From Fomitopsis serialis (Eukaryota; Basidiomycota; Agaricomycetes; Polyporales; Fomitopsidaceae): a stretch of 64,000 nucleotides of DNA. Location of the stretch: the NCBI RefSeq assembly GCF_022376445.1, contig NW_025955159.1, positions 1 to 64,000 of the forward strand, given 5' to 3'. How positions within the stretch are numbered: position 1 is the first letter of the stretch; each line of letters starts with the position of its first letter. Below, piece after piece: positions 24,941-64,000 of this stretch. Position numbers and translations under genes: made by a program. The notes beneath the pieces were generated by a model. The model saw only the letters and a list, made by a program, of their open reading frames with translations, searched no databases and was not told the origin of the DNA.

Positions 24941-27326
24941 ATGTATCACTACACCTTGGACATCAGTTACTGCGGAGAGAAGGCGAGACAGGCTGCCTTG
25001 CACAAGTCCGCGAACAGCGTTGAACGGTTTGTCGACCGCGACCTGCGTGCCTCACAAGGTTGGCGTGGTAAGCTTTTGGCGAGGAAGAATACCGGTAGCG
25101 AGATGCACATAGGATACCGTGAATCGTAGTCATGACGATCTCATGGTATGTCCTGTTTCTCCAAGCGAGGTTGCCAGGGCCCTCACTAAATTATGTGTAG
25201 CGGCGAGCCGTCGAACCGTTTCTGCCAAACATATGGCGTACATGGGAAGAGCACGGGGAAACAGATCGCAGGCTGCGCGAGCTAGACATGTGAGTGCAGC
25301 CAGCGTATCGGCCGTGAGCACGTCCTCAGGCGAATCATGCAGCGCGGAGGCTACCGCTCATATACAGTGTGTTCCTTTGCTTGATTTTGCTACACTTCCT
25401 GACATGCAGCGTAGGGAAGGGGTGGACCTAATTTTAGGGTTCCTGAAGCTGCCGTGAGTCCTCTCGCGCGTGCGCCGTCCCCGCCTCCGTCGCCGGTCCT
25501 CTAAGCGGCCCCGTTCGCCTGACTGCCGACCCGCCGACTGTCAGCAGAAGCGGTCTCGCCCGCAAGCACCTGTCTCCGTGAGAGGATCTATGCCTGTGAC
25601 TGAAAATGATCCTCCGATTGCTGGGCCGTCAAGGATCGTCGCGCAGGGACACAGGGATGATCGTCGAAGTAACGGAGCATCCGATCCTCGAGTGCGTTTC
25701 CTGGCTCCGTAGCCTCGCCTTCATGCGTCTGACTTGGCGTGCGTCGCTCGCGCTGCAATAGGCTCCCGGGTCCGTCCTATCTGCGATTGTGAACATCGCT
25801 CTCGTCACCATCAAGGAGGAACCCACGGACAATGATGCTCAAGTTCTCCTGAACGCAGACTCTACGTACCCGGAGGAGAACGACCAGGGGGCCCAGGGAG
25901 ATACGGCGGCATCTCAGACACACGTGGAAGGCAGTACGGCTGGCAAACGGCGTCGGCGCGAAGCCCGTGCTGGTGGACACGCTCAGGAGTGCCCTCACCG
26001 CGGCGGTCACCGTGCAGGCGCGGGAGGCGCAACTTGAGGCGGACGTCGCATTGTACAGAAGCCAAGCGGAGCGGTTGGCGACCCGCGAACGTGAGTTCTG
26101 TGAGAAGGAGAGCGCGTTCAGCGAGCGGGAGAACGGTGGGGCCCTGTCTCGGTTGCCTTCGCGAACAAGTGCTGTTTTGCTGATCTCCGTCGCTGAGCAG
26201 GCTTCCAAGTACAGGCGGCGCGGAAGGACGCGGAGCTGGCGGAAGCGCGGTATCAATGGGCGCAGGAGCGTATCCGGGTACTCGAGACGAACACAGAGAA
26301 GGAACGGGTCGCGCGTGAGATGCGCGAGGTGCAGGCACTGCTCGAGCAGGAGAAGATGGAGCGAGCGCAGGGCGAGGATGCAGGGCGGGCTGCACAGGAA
26401 ACCATTGCTTGTGAGTGGGTATGCGACAGTGGAGCTGAGTGCCAGCTGACGGGTACCTGGACAAGCCCTGCGAGCAGAACGAGATCGGCTTCAGACAGAG
26501 TTGCAGACGGCTCGCGATGCTGTTGCCTGTACGCGCTATCCGTCTTTCAACGCTCTATCGCGGACTCACTCGCCCCTTTCATAGCGGTGCAGGCACAATG
26601 GCATTCGGCGCATGAGCGAGAGCTCAAGGCCGAAATCGACAAGCGAGAGCGTGCAGAGCGAGTGGCGCTGGGTGAGTACCAATAATCATATTTGACTGCA
26701 CCCCGCATATGCTAATTGCACAACGCATTCTGACAGAGCTCGGCAAGAAGCTAGTAAGGCTGCAAGTGGACATGCGGAGTCAAAACACTGGTGCGGCACT
26801 CGCGTCCGCGTATCCTCTATTCGTCCACTGACGATACACCCGATAGCCCTCCGTGAGCAGGTTGAGACGCTGACGAAGGAACTGGAGGGCGAGCGCGCTG
26901 AGTGCTCAGCTAGGCGAGAACAGCTGGTGATGGAGGTTTCATGTGGGTATCAGTCGTCACTGCGTATCTTACGGCAGACTATACTAACATAATATCCACT
27001 GGCATAAGCGTTGCGAGTGCAGTTGAAAGCTGCCAATGAGGATAAGACTATGGGTGCGCACTGTGCTGTCATATGCTGCGGAGCTGTATCAACGAGTCGC
27101 GTCCCCTTCCACATAGCTCCGAGAGATTTCCGCGGAGGTGAAAACACCCCAGGCAAAGACACTTGGTGAGTAGCAATCACTTCTCGTAAGTACGATGCTC
27201 GGAGGCTTACCGACCTTTCGAACTGAAGGTCTCGAGACGCAGCTGCGCGTCGAGCGGACTGCACCCGGGGAAGCGGAAGGATGGTGTATCGACGCGATGA
27301 CCGCCGAGGCTGAGGCTGAGCGCTGA
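24941..27326 (+). pseudogene. Family copy A: divergent, disrupted coiled-coil gene
   Basis: Starts M-Y-H-Y-T-L-D-I-S-Y-C-G-E-K-A, matching the family N-terminus. After D-L-R-A the conserved S-F-W-R-G-R-I-P-V-A-R-C continues in another frame, and a TAG follows shortly after. Downstream exons keep family features: R-R-A-V-E-P-F...L-R-E-L-D-M before a GTGAGT donor, a basic stretch (S-S-K-R-P-R-S-P), a sumoylation-type I-K-E-E-P-T-D motif, a second basic cluster G-K-R-R-R-R-E and several coiled-coil exons (L-A-T-R-E-R-E-F, R-I-R-V-L-E-T-N, L-R-E-Q-V-E-T-L-T-K-E-L). The last frame ends with TGA at 27324-27326. It is the most diverged copy and lies outside the inverted array. Confidence 0.65.
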
Positions 27327-28087
27327 GCGCGTGCGTCGTGAGCGAGTTGGGCGCTGTCGGGTTGGACCAGTGTCCCGGTGACGGTTGAGGTACATGCCAG
27401 TGCTGCTATTGCCGTGACAATATACACGTTGTGTTGTTTTGGGCCTGAGGTTGCGACACTTGCACTCGTGAAATTGCAGATACCCGCTGGGATGTCAATG
27501 GTGGTCACCCACTGCACGTCCAGGTTGTACTTCAGTGGTGATTACTGAGTTTGGTTGCCTCATCATCGGCATAACCTTCTAGCGGCTTAGCCAAGGGCTC
27601 CAGAGTTCGAGCGACCAAGCCTTACGCGCATGGATTTGCACAAGATGTGCATTGCAATAGTATCATGGGCGTAGTACAAGACAGAGAGAACCTAGTAGAG
27701 TCAGATGAGTGGGCAACGCGTAGCCATCTGAATCTGAGGTACAAGTGCCAGTATAAAGGGGGAGTGTCTATCTGTGGGTCACCTTCCTATCGCCTACGGC
27801 CACGATGCGGTCATTCAAGACCTCCCAATACGATTTCTGAAATCATGAATAGAGACTGTCCCTATACGCGGACACGACGACTTCTCTCGGGGTATCTTGG
27901 ACGCATGGACGCCTGTCGTGATGGAGCTGCGAGCCCGTGCGAGGAGCCCGGGGCGAGGTTTGGGTGAGGTCTCGCAGTCTCGCGCCCACAATACAGTGTC
28001 TTGCTCTGCGCCGTTGAACGTAGATTCGGCTATAGCTAAGTGAGACGGGCAATCGGTGCTTCGGATAAGCTGACGACTCACGCCTTG
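27327..28087. other. Intergenic region, no supported gene
   Basis: A minus-strand open frame overlaps copy A's tail (27089-27517) and includes a hydrophobic stretch (V-Y-I-V-T-A-I-A-A-L-A-C). I cannot link it to a family. Nothing else was seen. Confidence 0.35.
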
Positions 28088-33590: not shown

Positions 33591-33973
33591 GCAGATCTAC
33601 AGCACGACGTCTCGATCGTCACTGGCACGGACCGTCTTGTGTGTCTCCCTGCGGCTTGGCATTGGCTCTGGAAGCTCTCGCGGTTGATTTGCTCTGACGG
33701 ACTCGGACGCCGAGGTGCGTATCGATGTGGGGGAGGCGGCGGAGTTGCGCGGACACGTCGTGAACTCCGCGGCAGGTCGCTTCCGTAGCTCGTGCTCCAT
33801 TGGCTCCGCGCATATGCACGTGAGCTGCCACGACGGCCTTGCGAACATGTCTGAGGACTCGGACTGTCACGACACGCGTGGGCCATTCAAGGCCTGCGGA
33901 CACCGAGCGTGTGTCCCCAAGTTGAATCCACTCTCCCGTTCTTCGAGACCCGCTCTGCCCCCTTCCTCTCCAC

Positions 33974-34400
33974 AGCGAGCTGTCGCACACTTATTGAAGC
34001 CTCCCCGTCAGGCCCAGCTGTCTGAGACGACGACGGCGCTCACTGGTATGCATACTCCCGGCCGGCTGCATCACCGCCCCTCTTTGAACCGTGTTTGTGT
34101 GTCCGCCAGCAGCTGGCGGACGCGCAGACTCAGTTCAAAAGGGGGAGTCTAGCGCTGCCGGCCGAGGTGATCGCAGAGCGGGATCGGCTCCAAGTCGCGC
34201 AGGAGGCAGCGGCGCTTTGGACGGAAGTTGTGCAGGAGAGGATGGGAGGGGATGGATGGCGGGCTTGGCGTAGCGCGATTGTTTGTGAGTTGATGCACAA
34301 AAGCAGTTTGGGGTTCTGTCTGACTTCGTCCAGCGCTGCGGACGGGATTGGAAAGACTGCGACAGGAAGTCCGCGCAGCGGAAGCGGCCGCTGTTGGTAA
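33974..34400 (+). pseudogene. Family copy B: fragment of coiled-coil exons 4-5
   Basis: The family leader motif GCTGTCGCACAC is present at ~33980, but exons 1-3 are missing. What remains matches exon 4 (Q-Q-L-A-D-A-Q-T-Q-F-K-R-G, I-A-E-R-D-R-L-Q, L-W-T-E-V-V-Q-E-R-M) and exon 5 (G-L-E-R-L-R-Q-E-V-R-A-A-E-A-A-A-V-G before a GTAAAT donor). No start codon or C-terminal exons. Confidence 0.7.
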
Positions 34401-34639
34401 ATCTGTTGGCATGGTTCGCTGGAACGGGTCTTTACGCAGCCCACTGGTGTGTACAGTAAACCGGATTGAGATACGTTGTAGTGCACGATGCGGCCACACA
34501 CACAGACTATACTCCGAGCCATACGTCGTTCTGTATTGATCCCTTCAAGCGCTGATCCGCCCTCAGAACGTGACTGTGCGCAGTGCGTGCACACGTCCAC
34601 TGACGGAAACGAAAAGTCCTTGGAGTCGCCTGGAGTCGC

Positions 34640-35600
34640 CCATTAACTCGCTCTTTGATCATTTTTGTCGGGTGTCTGGTAAAGATCTGATCTCAGCGCC
34701 TGACTTTTGACTCCGCGATGCCGGTTCGCGATCTCCGAGATCTTAAATCGGATGTCATTATGCTTCCGCCCCTTTCGCGAGCTGCCAGCACCGCTCCTCT
34801 CCGTGTGTTTCTGAGTCGTCTAAGCTGCGCTCGGTCTGTGATTCTAGGTATATCGATTGGGCATCGGAAAATATGACTGCGGCGCCCGCAATTCCTTGGA
34901 GGACGAATCGATGATGCGATTGAAGGCGACGTCACCAAGGTCGCAGGTGAGTCGCAGTGATACGTAGTCGTCTGCCTGCAGAGGGTCACCAACATGGTGC
35001 GAGGGCGTCGTCTAGCACGTCAGCAGCTTTGGCTCAAGATGTGTCACGTCGAAGGCGAGCGAGTCTTCTCGGGTGCCGGTTCGCAGTGGCACGGAATATC
35101 TGAGCGATGTCGTGCGGGGTGTGTCTCTCGCTTCGTTACGAATTGTCTCCGGGATCGATATCAAGTGGTGACGCGGTGTCCGAATCCGGAGTCCACACGT
35201 ACTTACTCTACCCTCGATTACGGCGTATGTGACGGTGCTAATAGCGTCCAATTTAGGTTGGCGGCTTCCCAAGGAAGGTCCAGGAGCGTCCGAGTCGTCG
35301 ACCGCTAATCACGTGTCGCGAGATTCAATACGGACACGCACGCTGCGGTCAACCTCTTGTGCGTGCAGCTTCCAGCTTGGACGTCGCCCTCTCCCCTTCG
35401 TGTATGGCATGTAGCGACGGCAGCAACGGAGCTCCAGCGCCGACAGGTGTCAGGATCTCATTGCATCGCGCGGTGCCCATTGCAGCGACGTCGCAGTCGT
35501 CTGACTGCCGGGTGCGCCGCGTTGTAAACACGTCAGCAGCTCTGGCTCAAAATACGTCCCGAAAGCGAGCGAGTCCTCTCAGATGCCTTTCCGCGGCAGA
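34640..35600 (+). repeat. Repeat R1, copy 1
   Basis: Marked by GGTTCGCGATCTCCGAGAT. Related copies lie at 38690-39420, 44190-44790 and, inverted, 51960-52540 and 55330-55880. It usually lies directly downstream of one gene copy and upstream of the next tRNA-like unit. No conserved reading frame. Confidence 0.7.
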
Positions 35601-36820: not shown

Positions 36821-37272
36821 TCCGCGACACGACTTGTCGATCGTCACTGGACCGTCTTGCCATATACTCCCTGCCACTGGTCACCAGTTCCGACAGATCT
36901 CACATTTGAGTTGAGCTATTGTGATGGAGTCGGCGCGTATCGATGCGGGGGAGGCGGTGGAGTTGCGCGGACACGTCGTGAACTGCGTGGCAGATCGCTT
37001 CCGTAGTTCGCGCCTGTTCGCGCTCCATTGATTCCGTGCACACGCGCATGGGCTGTCATTCATGCCACTGCGGGCTTGCGAACATTTCGGAGGACTCGAC
37101 CTGTCACGACGCGAGTGGTCGGCTTAAGGCTTGCGGACTTCGAGCGCGTGCGTCCACAGGTTGTGATCACTCTCCCACTTTCCGAGCCGGCACTCGCTCG
37201 ACAGGCTGCGTACCCCGTCCTCCCTTCGACAGCGGGCTGTCGCACACTAATTGAACACTCACGACGGCAACC

Positions 37273-38523
37273 ATGCACTCCGGGGAGTCTTCTAGCACGA
37301 CGCTCACTGCCGAGTACCCGTAGGCCTTTCTCCTGCATTAATCACACCGCTCGCGCAGCCTAAATTAACCCACAGGAGCGAACAACCAGCCCCCACGTCT
37401 CCGGTTCAACAGCCCGCACCGTCAAAGCGCCCGCGCCCGCCTGTCGCGGGCGATCGTACCGAGCCTGAGAGCAAGCGTCTCGGGCCCTCGTCCGGCGCAC
37501 GAGCCAATCCAGGTGACCGCAGCGCGGTCAAGGCCGTCACTCGGGGCGCTGCACTCGCTGCGAGACGCGCGCATCTGGTGGCCCTCGGGCGCGACCTGGA
37601 GGCCTGCCAGGAAGACATCGCGCAGACGAACGAGCGGCTCGCTCGGTGCGAGGTCCAGCTGTCTGAGACGGTGACGCCGCGCGGGGACGCAGACGCCGAG
37701 CTGGCGGACGTGCGGGCTCTGATCGGCGAGGGGCAGGTGCTCCTGGCCGATATGACCGCGGAGCGAGACAAGCTCGCGCAGGAGGCAGCGACGGTTTGAG
37801 CGGAGCTTGTGCAGGAGAGGATGTGATACAGGCCCTGCATGACAAAATCGCTTGTGAGTTAATGCACAAAGGCAGGTTTGGGTCTGTCTAACTTCGTCCA
37901 GCGCTGCCGGCGTAAGTGGAGAGGTTACGACAAGTCCGGGCAGCGCAAGCGGTCACTGTTGGTAAGCATATTGGGGTGCTTCTCTGGAGCGGGTGCTCAC
38001 AAAGCCTGTTAGTTCCCCTCCACGACCGGCCGCCTATCGACTTCAATCGGCTTGCGTCGACGCAAGCCGAGGTCGATAGGCGGCCGGTCGCGGAGCGGAA
38101 CATCCAGAGTGAGCACGATCAAGGATGCGTGCTCATGAATGCTGACCACGAGCGACGAGCAGTCATGTGCGAGAGGTTCGCCCGGGAAATGTGGGATCTG
38201 ATGGATGAGAGGCTTGATGAGCTGCCGTAGGCGATGTGGTGTTTCTCAGTGATGATGCGCTGACAACACACGGATGTATAGCCCTTTGCCGGCGGCTGGA
38301 GGCGCTCACGCTGCACTAGCAGCCGGAGGATGAGCGCGCTGTTCGCAAGCGCAAGGCAAGCTCTGCCCCACCTTGTTGTCTGCCTGGGAGAGGCCTTCGG
38401 TGCGTCATTCAAGTTACTTCAGGATGTTCGCGGGCGTGATGATCGGCATCCCAAACGCAGCTGGGAGTCGAGGAGCATCCTCACGCGGCAGGATGGGGTG
38501 AGCGCGACGATTGCTCACCTATA
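37273..38523 (+). pseudogene. Family copy C: 5'-deleted coiled-coil gene with a premature stop
   Basis: The family leader and ATG (37273) are fused directly to sequence belonging to intron 2 of the intact copies, so exons 1 and 2 are gone. The NLS-like segment P-S-K-R-P-R-P-P-V-A-G follows, then L-G-R-D-L-E-A-C-Q-E-D-I and L-I-G-E-G-Q-V-L-L-A-D-M-T-A-E-R-D-K. A TGA interrupts A-A-T-V / A-E-L-V-Q-E-R-M. The VKQE segment and intron 3 are missing. Exon 6 contains a long perfect hairpin at 38023-38090. Copy G on the other strand has the same 5' deletion without the stop. Confidence 0.75.
38023..38090. repeat. 68-bp perfect hairpin inside copy C exon 6
   Basis: 38023-38041 is the exact reverse complement of 38072-38090 (19 bp), and 38048-38069 is a 22-bp perfect palindrome centred on TCGA. 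Compared with copies E, F and G the downstream arm is the normal exon 6 sequence (Q-A-E-V-D-R-R); the upstream arm is an inverted copy of it replacing the expected bases. This is the footprint of a local inverted duplication, such as template switching. Confidence 0.85.
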
Positions 38524-38689
38524 GCGTCGGTGTGGATGTTTTCATCCAGCTCGCCGTCGGTGTGTTCAGTGCCCGATTGATATACGTTGTAGTCACGCAC
38601 GATGCAGCCACACGCAATCTATTCTCAGTTCCTTATACACTGACTATCATTCAGAGTCGGATTAGACACGACATCCTATACTATTGGTT

Positions 38690-40080: not shown

Positions 40081-40725
40081 ACGACTTCCCGATCATCACT
40101 GGACCGTCCGCGTCACTACCAAGGTAATATCATTTCCTCACGCAGAAAAGGCTTCGAAAGTGAAAAAGATCGCTCATGTTTTTCTGATGACATAGACAAT
40201 GACACCTGGGAAACGCGTCGAAACACGCTTTTCCTAGACCGAGAATGGTGGCTTGTGGTCCGCTTCCCCTGCCCGCGAAGGGATGTGAAAGTGCATTCAT
40301 TTCGCTGCAACCCTTGTACGTGGAGGAAACGATGATTCTTCTCGGGCGTGTCGATATCTGAGTGAGTCCGTGCATGCTGATTGGTGTGCGCAGTGTGATG
40401 GCATTGGCGGGTGAGACGACAGAATTGTGCGGGCACGTCGTGCACTCCGCGACAGATCACTTCCGTATCGCACACTCCATTGGCTCGGTACGCACGCATG
40501 AGCTGTCGCAACGGTCGTGCGCACATTTTAAAGTTTACACCCGTCACAACACCAGTGGGCAGGTCATAACCTACCAGTGACAGCGATCACGTGCGTCAAT
40601 AGGTTGAGTTCGCTCTCCCCGCGTCCGAGCCTGCACCAACTTGACCGCGTACCCCATTCTGACCCTTTTCTCTCGGCAGCAGGCTGTCGCACATTATCGT
40701 TTGAACACACACGCCGGCGACTACA

Positions 40726-42797
40726 ATGCAACACTATATCTTAGAGATCCACTACCACGGGCGGAAGGCAGAGCTGGCCCTTTTGCATAGAAACAACCCC
40801 CGGTATATCGAAATCTTTCTCCAGGGCGACCTGTGCAGCCTCGAAATCCCGCGCGAGCCTGCGGCCACCGTCGCGAGTTTCTGGCAAGGCGACGTGCCGG
40901 TGGTGCGATGCTCGTGGAACGCCGAACATTCCACCGACGACTTGGAGGCTCTCGTGCGTCTCTTCCTCATCTCAGGGAGACCTCCCGCTTACTCCTCGTC
41001 CACGCTTTGCAGTATCAGGTGCTAGAAGAGTTTACGCCGACGATGCTGGCAACATGCACGAGGCGGCAGCAAAAAGCGCTCAACGCCACACTGCGGGACC
41101 TAAACATGTGAGCGCCATGACCTTGAACACTTCCGGTCTTCGCTAACTTCGGTAGTGCGACGCTTACTGTCGAGTTCAAGTGGGTTCTTCTGCTACATTC
41201 GGTGCACCCCTCACGCAGCCTGACGTGACCTACAGGAACGTGTCTCCGGCCCCGGAAGCGCCTGCGGCCCCAGCTCGACAACCTGCACCGCCAAAGCGCC
41301 CACGTTCACCTGTCGATGGCGGTCATGCCGAGCCTCAGAACAAGCGTCCTCGACAGGAAGCCTCCGGGGCACAACCCTCCGCTCCCGGAACGCGCCCGAC
41401 GGCTATGAACACGGCAAGGACTCGTCCCGAGGGTGACAACGCTCCTGCGACAGGCTCTAGGTCTGCTCCTGCTGATGCTGCTCAACCTGCCGGACCTGCT
41501 CGCGCTGCTGAGGCTTCTGAGTCTGGGGTGACTAGATCTGCTGCTCGCACTGTGCCCTTGGATACCTTGAACGCTGCTTCTTCGCGGGCTGTTGCGGACG
41601 ATGTAGTGGTGAAACAAGAAGACGCGGACGACGCCCATGCACTCGGGGGCGCCGCGAAGGAGAACGCACCGCCAGGTCCTCAGGACGCGCCGGGCGATCA
41701 GGGCGAGCGCAACAGGGGCGCGACTAGTATCGTCGGCACGCTCAAGACTGCGCTCGACGCTGCGGTCGCTGCAGCAGACGCACACCTGAATGGACTCAGA
41801 AGCAACGTGGAAACTCGCGAGCTTGAGACGGCACGACTAAGCAAGCGGTTAGCCCGGCAATCAGCCAAGCTTCGAGCGACGGAGCAGGCGCTCCAGCAGC
41901 GGGAGAAGGGTGAGTCTCTCCCTTGTGCAAACCAGGTAGTACTGACAGTGTCGCTTGGTCGCAACGATCTGCAGATGTGGAGGCCGCTGGCGCGCGGAAT
42001 GACGCGGCGTTGGCACGTGCTGCGAGCGAGGTGTCTGAGGCGAGGGCAAGCGAGAGCGCGACGGCCGCCCAGTTGGCCGAAGCACGGGGCCAGCTGGCCG
42101 AAGCGCGGTCCCAGTTCGTGCGTGGGCGTTTGCGGCTGGCGGAGGTGACCGCCGAGCGGGATCGCCTCGCGCAGCTAGTCGCTACGCTCCAGGCAGACAT
42201 TGCGCGGGATGAAGCGAAGCACGAGGCTGAACTGAAGGCTACGCAGGACATGAATGCTCGTGAGTTGTCGTACGGAGCGGTGTTGGGTTCCGTCTGACTC
42301 CTTCCAGTGCTGCGAGCACAAGTAGGCACGCTGCAGTCGGAGGCGCAGGCAGCTCGAACTGGTCAGTATGTTTTCGTGGTTCCTGGGAGCGGGTGTTGAC
42401 ACAGCCCACTAGTGGCTTCGGAGGAACTCCGCCAATCAGAGCTCAGGGTACAAGCTGAGATAGATAAACGACAAGCCGCGGAGCTCAAGATACAAACCGA
42501 AGTCGAGAGACGACAAGTCGCAGAGCTTAGCGCTCAGGGTGAGTGGGTTTGCGATCCGTCGTGCCTCCGTGTATGCTGACCACAAGTGACGGGTAGACCT
42601 GAGTAAGAAATACGTCCGGACGCAATTGGATCTGCTGGGCGAAATCAATTGTAAGCCGTACTGAGCGTCCATGCATTACTTTTGTCGTGCTGACGATGGA
42701 CGGATGTACTGTAGTTCTTCGCGAGCAGGCCTATTCATCATCTGCTGCCTATATGGCTATGAGTCAAAGGATGTCCTTGTACGGCTGGAGAGGCTGA
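40726..42797 (+). CDS. Family copy D: intact 532-aa nuclear-type coiled-coil protein (novel family)
   Basis: Eight exons: 40726-40953, 41013-41107, 41236-41909, 41975-42259, 42308-42361, 42413-42538, 42597-42650, 42715-42797. All introns are GT-AG and the frame is unbroken (phases 0,2,1,1,1,1,1). Exons 1-2 encode the conserved N-terminal domain: M-Q-H-Y-I-L-E-I-H-Y-H-G-R-K-A, I-P-R-E-P-A-A, S-F-W-Q-G-D-V-P-V-V-R-C-S-W-N. Exon 3 is Pro/Ala-rich with basic clusters P-K-R-P-R-S-P and N-K-R-P-R, then V-V-K-Q-E-D-A-D-D and A-A-K-E-N-A-P-P-G, then the start of a coiled coil that continues to the end. I know no named family with this layout. Nuclear location and sumoylation are inferences from motifs. 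The last exon is shorter than in E and F. Confidence 0.8.
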
Positions 42798-45549: not shown

Positions 45550-47324
45550 ATGGTATACTACGTCTTGGAGGTTCACTACTGCGGAAGGAAGGCAGAGTTG
45601 GCCCTTCTGCATAGACGCACCGCCGCTGGGTACGTCGAAACCTTTCTCCAGGACGACCTGCAAAGCCTCGACATCCCGCGCGAACCTGCGGCCATCGTCA
45701 CGAGTTTCTGGAGAGACGACGTGCCAGTGGTGCGATGCTCGTGGAATGCCGAACATCCCACCGACGACTTGGACGCTCTCGTGTGTCTCTTCCTCGGTCC
45801 AGGGAGACTTACCGCTCACTCCCGGTCTACCCTTTGCAGCATCAGGCACTAGTAGTGTTCACGCCAACGGCGCGAGCAATACGCACAACGCGGATGCGTA
45901 AAGTACTCAATGACAAACTGCGCGAGTTGCAAATGTGAGTGCAACCACGGTGTATAGTCTGGGTTATGGTTCAAATCGGAGTGTCTTCTAGTACGGTGCT
46001 CACTGCCGAGTTCCGGTTGGTTCTATTACTACGTTGATGACATCCCCCACGCAGCCTAACGCGACCCACAGGACTGAACCTGTAGCGGTGAAGCAAGAAG
46101 TGGCAGACGACGGCATCGCACTCTGGGGCGCCGCGAAGGAGAACGCACCGCCAGGCCATCAGGACGCGCCGGCCAATCCAGGACATCGCAGCAGAGTCAA
46201 GCCCGGCGCTCTGAAGACGGCTCTGGACACTGCAATCGCTGCAGCGGGCGCGCGCCTGGAGGCACTCGGGCGCGACGTGGAGGCCCGCCAGGATGACATA
46301 GTCCAGACGGGAGAGTGGCTCGATCAGTATGAGGCACAGCTGCAGGCGAGACAGATGGCGCTTCGCGAGCGTGGGATGGGTCAGTCTCATATTCAGCGCG
46401 CCTCGCGAGTGCTAACACTCATTCGCAATGACTCCCAGACTCGGAGACGGCTAACGCGCGGAAGGAGGAGGCGTTGACCCGAGTCGAGGCCCACTTGTCT
46501 GAGACGCTGACGGCGCTCAAGCACAGGGACACCCAGATTGCTGACGCACGAACCCAGCGGGCGAAAGTATGGGCCCAGCTGGCAGATAAACAGACCAACT
46601 TCGTCAAGGGGCGCATGCAGCTGACCCAAGTGACCGCAGAGCGAGATCTACTCGCGCAGAAGAAAGCGACGCTTCAGGCGGACCTTGTGCAGGCGAGGAT
46701 GACAGAGGATGAACAACAGGCTCGGCATGACACGATTGCTTGTGAGTTGATTACAAAAGGCAGTTTGGGGTCTGTCTGACCTCATTCAGCGCTGCGGGCG
46801 GAATTGGGGACACTGGGACCGGAAGTGCAGGCAGTACGAGCGGCTATTGCTGGTAAACATGTTGGCATGGTTCTCTGGAGTGGGTACTCACAAAACCTAC
46901 TAGTGACGGAAGAGGAACTTCGCCAGTTGGAGCTCAGCACACAAGCTGAGATCGAAAGGCAAATGATCGTGGAGCGAAACACCCAGAGTGAGTACGACCA
47001 ATCATGCATGTTCTTGTGTGTACTGATCATGAGCAACGAGCAGTCTTGAGCGAGAAGTTCGTCCAGACACAGTTGGATCTGATGGGCGAGGCTCTTGGTA
47101 AGCTGTCCTAGGCGATGCAGTGTTCTCAGTGATTTGACAACACACGGATTTTAGCCCTTCGCCAGCATCTAGACACGCTCATGCAGCAGCTAGAGGATGA
47201 ACGCGCTGTACGCAGGCGCAATGCGGAAGAGCTATTCTCCACCGGCCACACGGAGGCCTTCGGTGTGTTATCTCCTCATGACGTTCGCGAGCGTGCCCTA
47301 TTCACGAGTGTCTTCCACATGTAG
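45550..47324 (+). CDS. Family copy E: intact 435-aa coiled-coil protein without the NLS-like segment
   Basis: Eight exons: 45550-45780, 45840-45934, 46072-46379, 46439-46741, 46790-46852, 46904-46987, 47044-47097, 47155-47324. They total 1308 bases with phases identical to D and F. The N-terminal domain is close to D (M-V-Y-Y-V-L-E-V-H-Y-C-G-R-K-A, I-P-R-E-P-A-A-I-V). Exon 3 is 308 bases instead of 674-770: the Pro/Ala-rich stretch with the basic clusters is missing, but it re-enters in frame at V-A-V-K-Q-E-V-A-D-D...L-W-G-A-A-K-E-N-A-P-P-G. The coiled coil continues through exons 4-8 and ends F-T-S-V-F-H-M. It may be a variant that stays in the cytosol or acts as a partner of longer copies (inference). 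Confidence 0.8.
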
Positions 47325-48188: not shown

Positions 48189-50299
48189 TCACCGCTGCAT
48201 AGGGAACATAGTGGTAAGTAGGCCATCGCGGCCGCGACCGTCGTACAGTAACGACGGACCAGAGGATTCCCTGTGCGCAGCGCGCTCGCCCTCTAGCTGC
48301 TGCGTGAACATCTCGACCCGCTCGCGAAGCACTGGATGTCCGTCCGTCGTCAGCGCCATGAGAACGCATCTATCTCCCAGGACAGCTTACCAGAAATGTC
48401 GCCTAGCAGATCCAGCTGTGTCCGGACAACCTTCTTGCCAAAGTCTGGCCGTCACTCGTCATCAGCATACACAAGGGCATGACTGATCGTACGCAGACGC
48501 ACTCTGAGCTTTCAACTCCACGGCCTGTCGTCTGTCGACCACGGCTTGCCGCTTGAGCGTTGAGCGGCGGCGGCCCTCTTCAGTCACTAGGAGGGGTGTG
48601 AGTACCAGCTCCGAAACGCCATGACAACATGCTTACGAATAGCGACTGCGTGTATCGCCTCCGCCTCCGGTCGCAGCGCGTCCAATTCAACTCGCAACGC
48701 TGGAGGAATTCAGACGGGATCCAACGCTACCCATGCCCATGGACTCACAAGTAATCGTGTCCTGCGTAACTTGCTGTTCGGCTTCGCTCGGCTTCCTCTC
48801 CTGCACAGCTTGAAGGTCCGCCTGAAGGGCCGCCACCTCCTGCGCGAGCCGATCCCTCGCTGTGGTCACCTCGGCCAGCCGCATCTGCCCCCTGACGGCC
48901 TGGGTCTCGGCGTGGGCCAGCTTCGCCTCCGCCTCCGCTACCTGGGTGGCTGTCTCCGCCAGCTGGGTATCCGGGGCACTCAGCCTTGTCCTCGCCTCGT
49001 ACAACTGGCCCTCAGCGCGTGTCAGCGCCGCGTCCGTCCGCGCCGCATCTGCCGCCATCTCTGCGGATCGACATCAGCACTGGCCGCAGCGCACGGGAGG
49101 AGACTTACCCCTCTCTTGCTCGCGGAGCGCCGCCTCGCTCGCTCGCAGCCGGGCTTCGCGCTGAGTGAGCCGGTCACTCACCCACGCCGTCTCATCCCGG
49201 CGGTCCTCGAGATCGCGCTGGAGTTCCTCCAGGCGCGCGTCTGCTGCAGCGGCCGCCTCGTCCAGAGCCGGCTTCAGACTGCCCACAATACTGCCCACAA
49301 TACTGGGCTCGACTCCGTTGCGATCGCCGGGCGGGACGTTCACGTTCGCGGTGCCGGCGTCGGCACCCCAGAGAGCCTCGGCGTCATCCGGGACTTCTTG
49401 CTTCACCGCTACTTCATCCACGTCGGCCCCGTTCGAGATGTCCAGGAGCACAGCGCGAGCAGCAGTTCCAGCCGTCCCAGTGTCAGAAGCCCCAGCAGCG
49501 CAAGCAGGTCCGGCAACACCAGTTACATTCTGCGAGGACCCAGTGTCAGGACGAGTGTTCGTGTCAGTAGAGCCTCTTGCAGGAGGATTGACGTCGAGAC
49601 GAGTCCCAGCATCTGCAGTCGGTTGCGTAGCCGGTGCGGATGTTTGTGTGCTGGACGTGGAAGCTTGCTGCCGTAGTCGTTTCGCCTGGTTCGCAGTGCC
49701 ACCGCCATTAGTGGGCGAGCGAGCGCGCTTCGACGCTCCAGAGGGCTGAGCTGGGGTTGGAACGGCTTGCGACGCCGGCTCTGTGTCACTGCAAGGTCCA
49801 TCAGTCTCGCCGACCACCGGTGCTGAGCCGAACGTACGTGATCTCGGCGACAATCTGGGAGCTAGACGTTTCGGCGAGCTGAGCGAGAGTACAGGTCCTT
49901 GGGCGGGCGGTGGACTCACATGTTCATTTCGAGCAGTTGGCGTTTGAACGCCTTGCGTTCGTTCTTCGTCTGCGCGTTGACGCGAGCGGGCAAGAGCGCG
50001 TCGATCGCCGCGCGCTGAAACGAGGAGTGAGCGATGTGTTCGCCGGCGGTGTAGAGACGGGAGCCTACCAGAGCGTCCGAGGCGTCTCCGCGATGCTCGA
50101 TATTCCATGCGCACCGTATCGCTGGGACAGAGCCTAGCCAGGAACTGGTGGTGCGAGCCCCAGGTTCGCGAGGGATGCCGAGCTTTACAAGGTCTTCCCT
50201 GACGAACCGTTCGATATACTTTGGAGACCGCCGCCTATGGGAAACGGCCAGTTGAGCTTTCACCCCAGAGTACTGGAAGTCCAAGACGTAGTGCTGCAT
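48189..50299 (-). CDS. Family copy F: intact 583-aa coiled-coil protein
   Basis: Eight exons read leftwards: 50299-50069, 50014-49920, 49878-49109, 49060-48749, 48699-48637, 48586-48503, 48444-48391, 48331-48189; 1752 bases, same phases as D and E. The N-terminal domain opens M-Q-H-Y-V-L-D-F-Q-Y-S-G-V-K-A and contains L-G-I-P-R-E-P-G-A and V-P-A-I-R-C-A-W-N. Exon 3 has the basic clusters S-K-R-A-R-S-P and A-K-R-L-R-Q, then V-A-V-K-Q-E-V-P-D-D-A-E-A-L-W-G; the usual A-A-K-E-N is replaced by A-N-V-N-V-P-P-G. The coiled coil runs through exons 3-8 (V-V-R-T-Q-L-D-L-L-G-D-I, L-R-E-R-V-E-M-F-T-Q-Q-L). It is the longest intact copy. Confidence 0.8.
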
Positions 50300-50744
50300 G
50301 TTGTTAGTCTGGAAAGTCGTGCACGACAGCCCGCTGCCGAGAGAAGGGGATAGTCTGAGTATGTCGGTAGTGATGATATGTTGCGGACACGACTCACAAC
50401 GGGTGCGGCAGTGGAACCAAGTAACACACGTGATTGGACTCGCGGACCCAGATCGGCGTCGCTGTCCCTCCTCGCGCGACGGCCCCACGTCACTTCAGAT
50501 ATCTCCCGCATAATCCTTCGCCAGGACGTCCGCATCGTCCACAAGACCTGCGGGCGGCGTGCTGCCATGCGCACGTATCTTGTACCAGCCAGTCACAGCA
50601 TGAACAAGTTCACAAGCAAAGGCTGCAGCGGGAATCTCGACGTGCTCGTCCTCTGTTGTCGCCGACCATTACATAGTGTACGCCAATCAGCACACCTGCA
50701 TTACCGACAGCGACGCAAAATGAGGGATCAATATAGCTAAGAAG

Positions 50745-51440: not shown

Positions 51441-51459
51441 ACAATGTGCCCGCGCCCGG

Positions 51460-52584: not shown

Positions 52585-53967
52585 CTAGTAAATGATAGTC
52601 AGGTGTCTAAAGGACTGTGAGATTAGTCTGTGTGTGGCTGCATCGTGCATTACAACGTATATCAATCGGGCACTGAACACATCGACGACCCACTGGCTGA
52701 CAACGTCCACAGCGATGCTACAGGTCAGCAACCGTCGCGCTAACACCCTGGCATCCTGCCGCGTGACTCGGAGGACGCCCCTTGACTCCCAGCTGCAAAG
52801 GGGACACGTAATGAATAGATCGTCACGCCCGCGAAGGAACCTGAATGACGCACCGAAGGCCTCTCCCCGGGCATCTGCCAAGGTGGGGCATTGCTCCTGT
52901 GCCTTCGCAGCGCGCTCGTCCTCCCGCTTCCGCTTAAGCTCCTCCAGCTGCCGTTGAAGGGCTAGACACCGCTACGTTGTCAGCACATCGCTGAGAAACA
53001 CCGCGTCGCCTAGGGAAGCTTACCAAGCCTAACATCCATCAGATCCCATATTTCCTGGGCGAACTTCTCGCTCATGACTGCTCATCGCTCGTGGTCAGCA
53101 TATGTGAGTATGGATGATTGATCGTGCTCACTCTGGATGTTCCGCTCCACGACCAGTCGCCGGTCGATCTCAGCTTGAGTTTTGAGCTCCAACTGGTGCA
53201 GTTCCTCCTCCGCCACTAGGAGGCTTTATGAGTACCCGCTCCAGAGATCCATGCCGATATGCTTACCAACAGCGGCCGCCTGCGCTGCCCGGACTTGTCG
53301 TAACCTCTCCAATTCCACCCGCAGCGCTGGACGAAGTCAGACAAAACCCACGCTGCCTTCGTGCATCAACTCACAAGCGTTCTTGTCATGCAGGGCCTGT
53401 ATTTTATCCTCTCTCGTCCTCTCCTGCACAAGCTCCGCCCAAACCGTCGCTGCCTCCTGCGCGAGCCGGTCCCGCTCCGCGGTCATACCGGCCAGCAGCA
53501 CCTGCCCCTCCCCGATCAGAGCCCGCACGTCCGCCAGCAGTGCGCATGCCTCCGCCAGCTCGGTGTCTGCGTCCCCGCGCGGCGTCACCGTCTCAGATAA
53601 CTGGGCCTCGCACCGAGCGAGCCGCTCGTTCGTCTGCGTGATGTCTTCCTGGCAGGCCTCCAGCTCGCGCCCGAGCTCCACCAGCCGCGCGTGTCTTGCA
53701 GCGAGTGCAGCGCAGCGAGTGCCGGCCTTGACCACGCTGCGGTCACCTGCATTGGCTCGTGCGCCGGACGAGGGGCGGAGACGCTTGCTCTCAGGCTCGC
53801 CCGCGACAGGCGAGCGCGGGCGCTTTGGCGTTTGAGCCGGGGTCGTGGGGCTGGTTGTTCGCTCCTGTGGGTTGATTTAGGCTGCGTGAGCGGTGTGATT
53901 AGTGCAGGAGAACGGCCTACGAGGATTCGGCGGTGAGCGTCGTGCTGGAAGACTCTCTGGAATGCAT
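52585..53967 (-). pseudogene. Family copy G: coiled-coil gene lacking exons 1-2, otherwise open
   Basis: The leader and ATG (53967) run directly into sequence that is intron 2 in intact copies, giving a stop after 16 codons; exons 1-2 are deleted as in copy C. From exon 3 on the frame is open: K-R-P-R-S-P-V-A-G, L-G-R-E-L-E-A-C-Q-E-D-I, V-R-A-L-I-G-E-G-Q-V-L-L-A-G, W-A-E-L-V-Q-E-R-T, L-E-R-L-R-Q-V-R-A-A-Q-A, L-H-Q-L-E-L-K-T-Q-A-E-I-D, L-Q-R-Q-L-E-E-L-K-R-K. The VKQE block is missing. An N-terminally truncated coiled-coil protein from another start cannot be excluded. It is the inverted counterpart of copy C. Confidence 0.65.
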
Positions 53968-54309
53968 GGTTGCCGTCGTGAGTGTTCAGTGAGTGAGTGT
54001 GCGACAGCCCGCTGTCGAGAGGAGAATGGGGTGTGCGGTCGACTGAGTGCGGCTCGAAGAGTGGGAGAGTGAATTCAACCAGGTGCAGTGCATGCGCGTG
54101 TGCATGGAACCAATGCCAGCGTGAACAGGCGCGAGCTACAGAAGCGATCTGCCACGGAGTTCACGACGTGTCCGCGCAACTCCACCGCCTCCCCGCCTCG
54201 ATACGCGCCGACGCCGTCACAGCAACTCGATTGTGAGATCTGTCAGAGTTGGAGACCAGCGGCAGGGGGCTATGGCAAGACGGTCCAGTGACGATCGACA
54301 GGTCGTGCC

Positions 54310-55880: not shown

Positions 55881-55899
55881 TGTGCCCGCTTCCCTACGA

Positions 55900-57350
55900 T
55901 GCTGTTGTCGGGCGAACACCTGCAGTCTCACACGGCGCACAACATCGATGACAGACGGTGGACGTCGTGGCGTGCTAGCCTTTCTCGCCGGTCGTCGGAC
56001 AGCTGGGCCTCCTCCCTCCCAACACCTGGGGCCTGGTCGATGCGCAGGAGGGACGTGCGATGGGTTCGGATTGAGGGGAGCATCATGTGCGTCCTGCTCT
56101 ACTATAGCGGAGACTCCTCTTCACTGCTAATGTATATGCGCGCGCCTCTGTTTTGTTGGTCGCTTCCGCAGCAAGCAGTCGCCGCTGAGATTCGGGCCGA
56201 GAGAAAGTGGAACGCGTCACGATGCACGGCACTGCCAGATGCAAGCGCGACGTCCTCGTCGGGGAGAGGCAAAGACCTGGATAGCTTTCAGCGACCACGT
56301 ACGCGGATGTGAGCCGACGTTATTTGGTGATCGCTCACGGAGACTGACAGCATCGCAGAGGCAGAGAGTCCATCTTCCGCTCCATTCCGTTCGAGTCCGC
56401 CCGCACCGTCGGTTCCGTCGGCTTCAGCATTATCTGCTAAAAATCAAAATTTCTTTCATGCGACACGGCACTTGCAAGGGCGAAACACCACCTCACGCTC
56501 ACCAGTGGCACTGCTGACGACGCCGTGTTGGGACGTTACACCCGCCATGCCTTCCGTAGCTCTCAGCTGAACACTAAGCGGTCCGCTCCTGTACTCAATC
56601 GAGGCTGGGGACCATCCCACATCGGAAAGCGCGCTGGATGGGGATCACAAGGAGCTACGCACGAGAGCGATCTCCATGCGGATCCGCGGGACATCGGCGA
56701 CTCGGGGAACGCGGACGCTCCGGACGAGTCGGGGAGCATCCTTGACTCGGGTGACGACTGGGTCAGTCTGCGCTCGGCTAGATCTCCTCTCGTTCATGTC
56801 AGCCCGGGCAGCCAACGTTCCGCTGCGTCCAGCTCGACGCTTGACGAAGCCACTCTGCGGTCGCATGCGCGGCCGTCTGTTGGCGGTGGTAGTTTCTGGC
56901 AGTTCTCCCCTCTGCTTCACGTACCGCCCGGGGATGCCGCACCTCACAGCCGCCCTGCTCCTGCCATCAGAGCCGCCGCTCCCACTTCCGAGGTGAACGT
57001 CGGGATGTCGTTCGACTTCGGATCCGAGACGCGCCGTGCGTCTTACTACACCCGACCTCCGCGCGCTGGGCACGGATGGACGGCAGGCCGACGGAGCTCT
57101 GCGACTCGCGGCCCAGGATGACGCGGTGCCCGTGCGCCCACCCGCCGCGCTGCAGCTTTCGGGCTTCGACGCGGAACCGCGGCTCGACTCGGGGACGCCG
57201 AGCGCGGGATGTCCGTTCTTCGAGCCTCGGTGGCACTACACGCGTCGCGACCGCGACGGCAACACTGTCAGCGTGCGCGCTCAGACCGCCTCCCTCGCTC
57301 CGGTTCTCTCGACGGCGGGCTGTCGCGTGCACCCCTCAAGGCTGAACACC
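55900..57350. other. Region upstream of copy H with one long unassigned open frame
   Basis: A plus-strand open frame (56525-57121) lacks an ATG at its start and encodes an acidic/Ser-rich stretch (D-S-G-D-D-W-V-S-L-R-S-A-R-S-P); it might be an exon but no homology is recognised. Just before copy H the family leader variant CGGGCTGTCGCGTG is present. No tRNA-like unit was found. Confidence 0.35.
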
Positions 57351-57490
57351 ATGAGGCACTGCGTCCTGGACATCCAGTACGCTGGGGTGAAAGCTCAGCT
57401 GGCCGTCTTCTGTAGGCGGCAGGCCGCCACGGACGTTTGAGAGACTCGTCAGGGGCGACCTGCGCACGCGTGACTTTCAGTCTACTGCAT
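57351..57490 (+). pseudogene. Family copy H: frameshifted 5' fragment
   Basis: M-R-H-C-V-L-D-I-Q-Y-A-G-V-K-A-Q-L-A-V is a clear family N-terminus, but the frame ends at TGA after R-R-Q-A-A-T-D-V. The expected F-E-R-L-V-R-G-D-L continues one base out of frame and homology is lost soon after. It lies convergent to the 3' end of copy I. Confidence 0.7.
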
Positions 57491-57900: not shown

Positions 57901-60900
57901 CTATGACTCATGGCCTATGAATCCTATCAACGGCCCACTGCCTGACAGCGTCCACACACGACGCTGCTCAGCAGTGGTCGTAATAGTACCCCATCCATCT
58001 GCCGCGCGAGTGCGCGCCTTGACCCCCGGCTGCGTACAAGGGACAATGATGAGTGGGTCATCACGCCCGCGAACGACATGACGGGATAACGCACCGAGGG
58101 TCTCGTGCGCGCCGGCGGCCAGCGCGGAGCATGGCTCTCCTTCCGTGCGCCCGCCGAGCGCAGCGCGCTTGTCCTCTAGCCGCTGCGTGAGCGCCTCGAC
58201 CTGCTCGCGGAGGGCTATCCGGGTCCGTCCGTCGTCAGCACTCCAGTGGGGCGGCCGCGTCGCCTAGAACGACTTACAAGATCCTTCGGCGAGCAGATCC
58301 AACTTTGTCCGGACGAATGTCTTGCCCAGCGCTACCCGCCAGTCGCCGGGCGCATCAGCATACACGAAAGCACGAGGGATCGTGTGCTCACTCACCCTGC
58401 GCGTTTCTCTCCACGAGCAGTCGTCTGTCGACCTCAAGCTCCAGCTTAAGCTCCACGAGCAGTCGATTATCAACCTCAGCTTGAGCTCCGATTGACGGAG
58501 AGCCTCCGCCGCCAGTAGTACGCCGTATCAGCAGCACCTCTCGGAAACATGAATACGTGCTCACCAGTGGCAGTTTGGGCTGCCTCAAGCTCCAGCCGCG
58601 CTGCATCCGCTCGCAGCACTAACGGAAGTCAGGACAGATCTTCGCCGACTCTGCAGACAAACTCACCAGCAATCGTGTCCTGCGCAACTCGCTGTTCGGC
58701 GTCGTGGTTCTCCCGCTCCCGCGCAAGGTCCGCTCGAAGCGCGGCTACCTCCTGCGCAAGCAGCTCCGTTTCTGTGGTCACCCCGGTAAGGCGCGCCTGC
58801 ACCAGTACATCCTGCGCCTTTACATCTGCGAGCTGGGCCTGTGTGTCAGCCAGCTGTGTCTGCGTATCTGCGAGCTGGGTCCGTGCGTCTGTCAATCGCC
58901 TCCGTTCGTGCGCTAGCTGGGTCAGTGTGCCTGTCAGCCGGGTCCCTGCATCTGTCAGCTGGTCCGTGCGTGAGCCAGGTTGTTCTGCGTCTCCGCCAGA
59001 TGGGCCCGCGTCTCCTCCAGGTCGCTCCGTGAGTCCGTGACCTGCGTCCTCGCGTCCAACAACTGGCCCTGAGCGCGCGTCCACATCGCCTTCATCCGCG
59101 CGAGCTCCGCCGCCATACCTGCGTATCAGAGTCAAGGATCAGCGACAGGACTAGTAGGATCGCCCCAAAGAGAGAAGCCTGACCGTTCTCCCGCTGGAGG
59201 GACGCCGCTTGCCTCGCTGCGAACTCGGCCTCGCGCCGAGCGAGGCGCTCTTCCCGCTCCGTCGTGCGCGCCGCCTCATCCTGGTGGCCCTCCCTTCGAG
59301 TTCGTCTATGCGCGCCTCTGCTGCAGCGACCATGGCGGCCATAGCACTACTGAAAGCATCTCCCAGTCCTGTCGTGACCCCGTTGCGGGCACCCGAGTCG
59401 GCCTCAGTCCCAGAGCGGGGTGGCGGCAGGTTCTCCTTCGCGGCGAGGGCACCGGCGACTCTGAGAGCCCGAGAGTCGTCCGTGGCTTCTTGTTTCACTG
59501 TCACTTCGCTCGCAGCGGCCCGGGAGGATGCAGCGTTAGAGGCCTCCGAGAGTGCAGTACGAGTGGTAGATCGAGCTGCCCCAGATTTAGAATTCCCAGC
59601 AGTACGAGCAGTCTGAGCAGGAGTAGCATTGGCCGTCACAGTCTGAGCAGTCTGAGCAGCACCAGTCTGAGCAGTCGAGGCCCAACCCGATCCCGAGGCA
59701 GCCTGAGCAAAGCGTGGGGGAATCCGCTGGAAGCGAAGCATGTTGGCGACCCTAGGAGCATGTGGAGGTTCAGGTTGAGCGAAGTGCTGACCACCGTTCG
59801 GGTTGAAGCCGGGCGCGACGTTCGGATATGGCGCAGCGACTTCATGAATAGCAGGCAGAGACCCTGAAGCGCCAGCATCGATGCGAAGTCCCCCAGTAGT
59901 ATCGTGTCGAACCGCCCAAGGTGCGTTATTGATGAACCTGGGGCCATTGAATCGGACCCCTCGCGGATGCAGTTGCGGCGGCAAGGCCTGAGTGCGCTTG
60001 CGGTTGTCCCACGAATGGAATCTCGGCGGCATCGGCGGGCGTACGAATTGGCTCGGGGCCTGTTCGGACCACCAGAAGGCTGAGACTGCTGGACTTGCAC
60101 GCCCTGTAGATCCCGCGCGCGGAGTGAAACGGCACCTGGGCACCAGTCGCGGGTGCCTGCTGCCGAGACGCTTGCTGTCAGGACCGGCGTTGCCACCCTC
60201 GGATGGTGAGCGTGCTCGCTTCGTCACTTCAGTAGGACCCGGCGGAGCTGGGACTGAGTGGTCCTGCAGGGCGGAGGCCGGGCGGTTCTGCAGAGCGGAT
60301 GCTCGGTGGTTCTGCGGAGCGGGTTCTGGGCCGTCCTGCAGAGCGGGGACGAGGGGACGGTTCTGCGCCGCTGGGTCGGGGAGATCTCGCGCAGCTGGTT
60401 CCACCTCCCTGCGAGTCCAATGAGTCGACGCGACCACGTTGGGAGCAACGACAGAACGCACCGGATCTCAACATTGACATGTGCGCTGGGCAGTCCCCGA
60501 CAAGCTGAGTCGCACGCAACTTTGTAGGATAGTACTGGGGGCGTACTCACATGTGCATTTCGGTCAGTTTGCGGTTGAACGCCTTGCGCTGTTTCTTCGT
60601 ACGTGCTTGGCTCTTGATGGCAAGGATCTCCTCCACCACTTGGCGCTGCGAGTGCAGACGAAGAATCAGGATCGCCCCAACAGCTCTAGAACACGGTGTC
60701 GTACCGCAGCATCCGGTTCGGCGTCACGACGCTCGACGTTCCACGTGCATCGTACCACCGGTACAGAGCCTTGCCAGAGACTTGTGACGGTGGGCTCGAA
60801 CGTGGCGGGAAACCCAAGGCCCAGAAGGTCGTCCTCGATAAACTGCTCGAGAGATCCGGTAGCCCGTCTGTGCGCAGTAGCCAAGTTCGCCTTCTTCCCG

Positions 60901-60932
60901 GTGTAATGAATGTCTAGAATGTAGTGCTCCAT
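57901..60932 (-). pseudogene. Family copy I: long, frameshifted copy
   Basis: All parts of the family are present. N-terminal domain: M-E-H-Y-I-L-D-I-H-Y-T-G-K-K-A and W-Q-G-S-V-P-V-V-R-C-T-W-N-V-E. Exon 2 ends K-L-T-E-M-H-M before GTGAGT. A very long exon 3 has T-K-R-A-R-S-P-S-E-G-G, an Asn/Pro-rich insert not in D-F, and V-T-V-K-Q-E-A-T-D-D...A-A-K-E-N-L-P-P-P. One frameshift lies after D-E-L-E-G-R (about 59285), where E-E-R-L-A-R-R-E-A-E-F-A-A-R-Q continues in another frame; a second lies in exon 4 after N-N-L-A-H-A-R-T (about 58965). The C-terminal exon is open to TAG at 57901-57903. Either a young pseudogene or sequence errors. Confidence 0.7.
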
Positions 60933-61352
60933 GTTGAAGATGGTCGTTTGTGTATGCTGAAGTAGTAGTATGTGACAGCCTGCTGTCGATAAGGAATTGC
61001 TTGACCTATAACCGCAAGCGGGAGAAGATAGTAGAAGTTGAACTTGCGATGCGAGTGCGTTCGAACCCATACGGAGCGACGCACGTGGTGACTGCGAGTT
61101 ACACGTCCATCAGCGACACCACGATCTGGCACCTGGCGACGATGTGTGATGTGTCCGTGTCGTCGAACTGCATCGATCATTTGTGGCGCCGTACCTTCAC
61201 GAAAGGCAGCACGTCCTGCTGCTTGTCAGTTGATGAACGGGCCAGTACACCCGGATCTTCGATCGAGGACAGTTCGCAGAATCGCAACCCGACGCGCCAC
61301 GCAGCGACGATCATACACAGACGCCCACACCAGTGGGCGCAGACGGAAAATC

Positions 61353-62489: not shown

Positions 62490-62836
62490 TGACACGATAC
62501 ATACCGCTTCTGTTCCATACCTGGGCCGTCCGGTGAACGAGCTCGAGGGTCCTGACTCTTGGGTAGTTCGCAGAGCTTGACAGAGGTAGTCTCCCCAGGC
62601 AGACGTAGACAATCCCTTCAACCTTCGTGCACCGTGCCTCCGGATATCGACGACAGAGTATCCGTGGCACGGGCATGCGCATTATTTTATTTCAATCTCG
62701 ATCGCGGGATTTGCCGTGGCCTAATGCGCAACTTACATCCAACTTACATCCTCTTGCAAGGGGTTGTCCTCTTCCTGCTCTTCCCGCTCTTCCTGCTCCT
62801 CCTTCCTCCTCGATTCCACTGATACCTGCACTCGCG

Positions 62837-64000
62837 ATGGCGGTCACGATGCTCATTCAGTATAGAGCGGACAAGGCTCGTCTGTTCAATATATACCAAG
62901 AGGACGCGGAACGGTACCTAGCGGGCTTCTTGGAGACGACTTGCGGACGTTGGGGCTGCCGATGCCACACGAATGTGTCTTCAAGTCGTGGCGCACAGGA
63001 TTTGTCCTGTGCAATTGGGACGCGGCGGATGGCAGCGTGTGTTTGTTTCGCTCTAGGTATGTCTCCGACTCTGATCAGACCCACAGTCGTTGCACCGGCA
63101 GCTCATCGCTGCCTTCCAAGACATTCGCAGATCCACGAGGTCGTTTCCGGATCTGTTCATGTGAGCTGTCGTACGCTACATCACAGCATCCTACGCTTCA
63201 CACCGTCCCCTTCGTCAGTGGGAGGATCGAACTACATGACGGGTGGGTCGGGACGTCGCGTGTACGAGGCGCGTCGCTCATGGCTGGTCTGCTAGCGGAT
63301 CGCGGACGGTCGCCTCCGCGCCCTTCGCTTATAAAAGACAGAAAAAGGCATCTGCGCACACACGCGATGTGCCTGCCCCAGGCCCCGGCAAGGCCCCCAC
63401 CGCGCCCAAGTCGACGCTCCTCGCGAGACATGCGAGTTCGCCGCTGGCGCGACCAATGGCACCGTCACACCAGTGTAGGTTCCGTGCCTATTCTCTGAAT
63501 AGTGTCTGTGCTGAGCACCTAGTCAAGACCACACAAATCACTTCGTTCCCAGGTTCCACGGCGAGGCTGACAGCTCCACAGATGAACGTTCCGCCGCTCC
63601 CAAGGAAACACCTTCGTCGACAGGCCTGCGTCCGGTACCGCAGCGTTCAGTGCCCCAGCATCCGGCGTGGGGTTCGCGTCCCTTCGAAAACTACAGAGTT
63701 GCCTGCGGCCACCGCTAACGGGACAACGTCCGCACGGCCACAAGGCTTCGTAGTCCCCAAGGTCGAGGAGGAGAGCCACGACGCTATCCTGCACAGCAGT
63801 CCTCCAGCCCTGAAGGACCGTCGCAGGAGTCTCCTCGACGCGGCCTCTTCCCTCCTCCCAGCGCCTCGTACGCGTTTGCGAAGAGCTCCCGCTCAAGTCC
63901 GTCGCCCTCGCGCGCGAGCCACGGGTCCTCTGCGTCGTCGATGTTCTCGGCCAGGAGCTCGGCGACGAGCATGTCCAGCATCAGCACGACGGCGTCGGAC
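62837..64000 (+). pseudogene. Family copy J: divergent copy running off the right edge
   Basis: ATG at 62837 after a CT-rich leader. The first exon reads M-A-V-T-M-L-I-Q-Y-R-A-D-K-A-R-L...R-Y-L-A-G-F-L, and the family D-D-L-R-T-L-G-L-P-M-P then continues one frame away, followed by F-K-S-W-R-T-G-F-V-L-C-N-W-D. Exon 2 (S-L-H-R-Q-L-I-A-A-F-Q-D-I...F-P-D-L-F-M) ends in the family-typical AT/GTGAG donor. A later exon has V-V-P-K-V-E-E-E-S-H-D-A-I-L at the VKQE position. The single frameshift may be real or a base error. On the minus strand 63784-63987 is also open with an acidic, codon-biased look (A-E-L-L-A-E-N-I-D-D-A-E-D-P-W); a gene entering from the right on that strand cannot be excluded. 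Confidence 0.5.

Follow-up and report, generated by a model that had tools for sequence, protein, structure and literature searches.

The window, 64,000 bases representing positions 1–64,000 of the 69,062-base contig C111 and thus most of that contig, in the 66-Mb assembly (806 contigs) of Fomitopsis serialis (Polyporales), a brown-rot fungus also named Neoantrodia serialis, contains ten related genes (copies A–J, Table 1) belonging to a real, selected and unnamed gene family of mushroom fungi. The window holds a derived branch of this family, partly kept and partly decaying. The cluster appears to belong to a large gene family of mushroom-forming fungi that evolves fast and occurs in clusters. 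Canonical members of the family have an N-terminal domain (N-domain) of ~105 residues with a predicted ferredoxin-like fold, then a long linker that is disordered and in most cases contains a SUMO-type psi-K-x-E motif, and finally a predicted coiled coil ending in a conserved PFVVPALMDAF helix. One F. serialis branch, which has a longer coil and in D, F and I a bipartite basic cluster in the linker, seems to have lost this tail and multiplied in a direct and inverted array. Judging by this architecture, the proteins may be nuclear, SUMO-tuned scaffolds or co-regulators, the coil serving multimerisation and the N-domain partner binding; the explanation as a whole, with a nuclear oligomeric scaffold function included, is favoured here with moderate confidence.

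The copies were located by tblastn with five N-domain queries and by tblastx between regions. A 17-bp upstream element precedes eight of them, in perfect form in seven and with two mismatches in one, and copies A (24941) and J (62837) complete the ten. An earlier note, made from the sequence alone, had described a ten-copy family with a layout known from no named family and a ~110-residue domain common to all copies. The related gene family and its N-terminal motif proved real, while the general sharing of the domain did not stand: the N-domain is intact in four copies (40726+, 45550+, 50299- and 60932-, i.e., D, E, F and I), broken in 24941+, reduced to a 29-codon fragment in 57351+ and split over two frames in the distant member 62837+, and it was not found in 33969, 37273 and 53967- with these searches of the window. 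Five, perhaps six, of the ten are thus broken or domain-less. Exon 1 of copy A, which has a 377-residue NCBI model (P0001, B0H18DRAFT_1108824), shows a frame-shifting deletion and a stop relative to its open allele at C401:267206. The counterparts of copy J exon 1 at C794:151309-151521 and C793:159111-159323 read through, and since the C794 stretch is 99.8% identical, the frame break in copy J is a possible assembly error.

Comparison of the window-type profile (A6, six sequences) with the canonical profile (A7, 11 sequences) by hhalign gave a probability of 98.6 and an E value of 5.8e-16 over 77 columns, corresponding to the exon 1 part, and the family signature Y...K...DL..LG.P...G...C.W is present in the window-type copies. 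The earlier statement that no named family has this layout agrees with the searches, in which Pfam gave no match above cut-off and PDB no convincing sequence match. The layout is not private to one array: the domain is shared with a wider database family of uncharacterized proteins, and its fold class is predicted to be a common one. In the AlphaFold2 model of the canonical protein P0002, the N-domain has the order beta-alpha-beta-beta-alpha-beta, with block confidence scores (pLDDT) of 78–97, and the coil is predicted as helices 281–312 and 328–380. NIPSNAP-type dimeric alpha+beta domains (5k9f, 1vqy) were the top Foldseek rows for this model (E 2.2e-3, probability 0.98), but with 14–15% identity, a root-mean-square deviation of 8–11 A (10.8 for the top match) and none under E 1e-3. 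They were not among the 50 rows of a second Foldseek look, and none of 11 N-domains matched Pfam NIPSNAP at E up to 1; the resemblance probably extends to fold class only.

With 7993 candidates scored, a search with the tail of a C793 member yielded at least 23 proteins (E up to 1), at least five of them from F. serialis itself and others from Rhodofomes, Daedalea (now Fomitopsis quercina), Taiwanofungus, Obba, Fibroporia, Fomitopsis schrenkii, Fistulina, Marasmius, Mycena and Dentipellis. Inspection by eye showed most of the N-domain in 14 of the 23; the models P0005 and P0015 are mangled, and seven further models lack the domain, including the Dentipellis and Marasmius records and P0010, which retains its last part. 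The N-domain was thus seen in Polyporales and Agaricales, and in Russulales only the tail. Among P0002–P0024, uncharacterized proteins of Fomitopsis, Rhodofomes, Daedalea, Obba, Fistulina and Mycena share with the window copies the N-domain, mostly psi-K-x-E in a disordered linker, and a C-terminal coiled coil. Canonical members end in a DVRREC..PFVVPALMDAF-type tail, whereas copies D, E, F and I have a longer coil, and the PFVVPALMDAF tail had no match in the six frames of the window by pattern search or tblastn. Because the tail was not found, these four copies are regarded as a variant branch related through the N-domain, not as canonical members.

A tree of 24 N-domains, from which P0002 and P0006 were excluded as duplicates (long branches, arbitrary root), placed the six window-type copies in one group with 97/97 support, a long stem and F. 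serialis sequences only; two further groups each mixed Daedalea, Rhodofomes and F. serialis. Contigs of 456,036 bases hold three Daedalea members, and contigs of 581,792 hold two Rhodofomes members; since several members of each genus are on same-sized contigs, clustering is probably old. The F. serialis assembly has 45 matching places, of which 39 reach E 0.01 or better, a count that includes both haplotypes and overlapping contigs and therefore exceeds the number of actual genes; arrays occur on C793, C794, C111, C221, C401 and C93. Scattered 'uncharacterized' entries would thereby become a testable mushroom-fungus family characterised by its confidently predicted N-domain, by a SUMO-type motif that recurs among members and by the conserved tail, with candidate orthologue groups in Daedalea, Rhodofomes and Fomitopsis (two in the tree), and the most expanded array seen would be a natural case of coiled-coil gene birth and decay.

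A simple program that chains exons, trained on a few parts of the window, assigned to six of the seven near copies an exon 1 of 216–231 nucleotides (nt), an exon 2 of 89–95 nt and an exon 3 of 24 nt, with phases 0/2/2. In a genome-wide enumeration over near and distant copies, 13 of 18, D, E, F and I among them, could be read without a stop using a 24-nt exon 3, phases 0/2/2 being imposed and not a free outcome of this count; exons 1–3 of the fitting copies measure about 190–231, 59–95 and 24 nt, and in all 13 each of eight alternative exon-3 lengths gave a lower splice score or no solution. The NCBI model of P0002 has the same joins of exons 1–3 and its first 97 residues are identical to those of the model built here, although the fourth exons differ. 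Eight exons joining in frame had been claimed for D, E and F (presumably 40726+, 45550+ and 50299-) and were recovered by combining several model runs, with the seven phases 0,2,2,1,1,1,1. The claimed variation in exon 3 length belongs to exon 4, which measures 674, 299, 680 and 1016 nt in D, E, F and I, exon 3 being fixed at 24 nt in the models. Later coil exons are mostly of phase 1, with uncertain 3' ends. An additional in-frame intron proposed by the program in 45550+ and, in one run, 40726+ was left unspliced because the frame is open there (45550+: open reading frame 46432–46779), and the last two exons of copy F, to 48264, were placed by hand against relatives.

Of the 23 members examined, 19 have the psi-K-x-E motif in the linker, D, E, F, I and C401a included (mean 1.9 and largest value 8 in 500 shuffles, which ignore shared descent). 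The VKQE motif and the basic clusters reported earlier are real, the latter as a bipartite K-R-x-R-S-P...K-R in D, F and I; the AAKEN element said to follow VKQE is present in 40726+, 45550+ and 60932- and missing from 50299-. The long coil-like stretch is likewise real, being proline-poor and locally heptad-periodic in the window-type copies.

The ratio of nonsynonymous to synonymous substitution rates (dN/dS) over exons 1–3 of six copies, four from the window and two from elsewhere, was 0.22–0.57 in 13 of 15 pairs, two being saturated. All four coil-exon pairs, only one of which lies within the window, gave 0.36–0.49, with Fisher p values from 0.04 to 0.0004. The protein-level selection proposed earlier is borne out by these values, and its dN/dS check on D, E and F, run here with I, gave 0.27–0.57, not near 1, in 6/6 pairs. 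In the domain-less copies C and G, the only such pair compared, dN/dS was 0.94 (p 0.87). Copies that keep the N-domain are thus under a real, though loose, constraint; no constraint was detectable in copies that lost it, a statement that refers to one pair.

Several observations weigh against a selected family of nuclear, SUMO-tuned scaffolds. The window's own domain was modelled poorly (mean pLDDT 61.5, ~75 over residues 1–70), and five of the 18 copies fit no 24-nt exon 3 (C401b, C794_109, C793_31, C793_139, C794_35). The psi-K-x-E motif is missing in four of the 23 members, the Mycena one included; copy E (45550+) has a short linker without the basic cluster; and whole-sequence heptad periodicity was not significant in the two window-type coils tested. 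Values of dN/dS of 0.4–0.57 indicate weak constraint, and the shuffles do not account for common ancestry of the motif. The 'nuclear' label is suggested by motifs, and sumoylation by a short motif.

The most serious alternative is that the cluster is mostly a graveyard of recent duplications with one or two working genes, the common exon structure reflecting simple inheritance. It is consistent with the broken or domain-less state of A, B, C, G, H and perhaps J and with the neutral appearance of the C/G pair. However, the N-domain exons of D, E, F and I have kept an open frame at a pairwise dS of 0.38–1.69, with the constrained dN/dS values given above, and the exons compared with C221 (seven of D, four of E, seven of F and four of I) are gap-free, except for unequal 3- and 4-base gaps in the long linker exon of copy I. 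We therefore consider this alternative unlikely, and a selected family with a partly decaying branch is preferred.

Both haplotypes are partly present in the assembly. C221 matches C111 from 39.4 to 69 kb in blocks at 97–99.5% identity, some stretches having no counterpart in place; C401:267064-274500 aligns to C111:24803-32241 (96.8%) and C794:149500-157500 to C111:64861-56867 (99.8%). Both C794 135500–140856 and 149500–157500 match the right part of C111 at >99%, so the copy J segment appears duplicated in C794. Near copy A (24800–24941), the downstream side matches C401 from 267 kb and the upstream side matches C401:24-31 kb on the opposite strand at 80–86%, which points to a rearrangement or recombination breakpoint relative to C401 close to copy A. 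Coding changes relative to C221 number one in 495 codons in copy D, one in 216 in E, five in 497 in F and 13 in 451 in I.

Another alternative is a self/non-self recognition or drive locus, with paralogues that vary from one haplotype to the other and products that detect a mismatch between partners. The arrays on six contigs fit this proposal, as do the divergence of C111 and C401 at copy A, the stretch C221:1001-10990, only the last 455 bases of which match C111 over at least 250 bases, and C221:14507-15692, which matches copies C and G at 77–80% and has no such copy in place in C111. It is nevertheless improbable: alignable alleles are nearly identical, as in copy D, which does not suggest old balanced alleles; mating-type genes (homeodomain, STE3) were not found on the contigs of the cluster, their matches lying only on C468, C596, C112, C734, C287, C370, C541 and C223, a result that covers linkage up to the contig ends; and the contig differences may be assembly effects. 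A little less probable still is that the N-domain, compared here with RRM-like domains (Nop6 RNA-binding domain 2mzj, Puf1 RRM 6nww), is an RRM relative in RNA-binding coiled-coil proteins: no Z score reached 8, SEA, Mesd and ABCA4 domains scored level with the RRM-like ones, the aromatic residue of the RNP1 consensus, three residues before the strand-3 Trp, was missing by eye in 17/17 sequences, and Pfam RRM gave no match. Least probable, and highly speculative, is a hypervariable supercluster of a mushroom-specific protein family in which the N-domain would set binding specificity and the coil the multimerisation partners, so that nuclei of different haplotypes would make different nuclear assemblies; in addition to its two mating loci, the fungus would then have a third recognition system, linked to SUMO.

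The upstream element TCGRCRGCRGGCTGTCR, with palindromic arms, lies 24–40 nt 5' of the start codon in the seven window copies from which the pattern was taken; with the eighth, the window count is 8 against 0.34 in shuffles. Genome-wide, 22 perfect matches were found, 17 on cluster contigs and five elsewhere (C1, C40, C101, C390, C476), and the reversed control had zero. The element may act as a promoter site or form a hairpin in the 5' leader, or its presence may simply reflect common ancestry of the copies.

Table 1. Members of the gene family in the window (~, end approximate; coordinates of minus-strand features run from high to low)
Copy	Extent	Strand	Upstream element; ATG	N-domain (exons 1–3)	Linker, coil and remarks
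A	24941..27300~	+		start MYHYTLDISYCGEKA; exon 1 broken in this haplotype	
B	33969..34660~	+	diverged, 2 mismatches	not found	coil remnants
C	37226..38590~	+	37226-37242; 37273	no match to exons 1-2	basic cluster and coil retained
D	40673..42538	+	40673-40689; 40726	40726-40953, 41013-41107, 41156-41179	exon 4 41236-41909 (basic cluster, VKQE, AAKEN); coil exons 41975-42259, 42308-42361, 42413-42538; later exons uncertain
E	45500..47097	+	45500-45516; 45550	45550-45780, 45840-45934, 45992-46015	exon 4 46072-46370 (VKQE, AAKEN, coil start); coil exons 46439-46741, 46790-46852, 46904-46987, 47044-47097; later exons uncertain
F	48264..50340	-	50340-50324; 50299	50299-50069, 50014-49920, 49861-49838	exon 4 49788-49109 (basic cluster, VKQE); coil exons 49060-48749, 48699-48637, 48586-48499
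G	52600..54018~	-	54018-54002; 53967	no match to exons 1-2	coil present; twin of copy C in inverted repeat
H	57309..57437	+	57309-57325; 57351	fragment, 29 codons of exon 1 only	
I	58060..60989~	-	60989-60973; 60932	60932-60705, 60645-60551, 60485-60462	exon 4 60408-59393, long linker (basic cluster, VKQE, AAKEN), coil after it
J	62837..64000, continues beyond window	+		exon 1 in two frames	canonical-branch member, P0015-like

Short repeats lie between the copies at 31471–31605, 32888–33030, 50797–50939, 51558–51723, 54922–55087 and 61343–61477; by eye they have a tRNA-like A-box/B-box appearance, ARAGORN reported no tRNA in them, and they are possibly short interspersed elements. At 23235–23964, ~720 bases match many places in the assembly, over <100 bases to the whole length and at 66–100% identity, and probably represent a mobile element. 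Opposed reading frames at 10192–11088 (+), for which Pfam gave no match at E 0.01, and 11387–11848 (-) both have KDIARGL.ANGA near the start. Two full-length nuclear RNase P RNA matches were found in opposed orientation at 16800–17367 (-) and 20973–21522 (+) (74 and 80.4 bits), and the assembly contains six such matches, including an opposed pair on C401.
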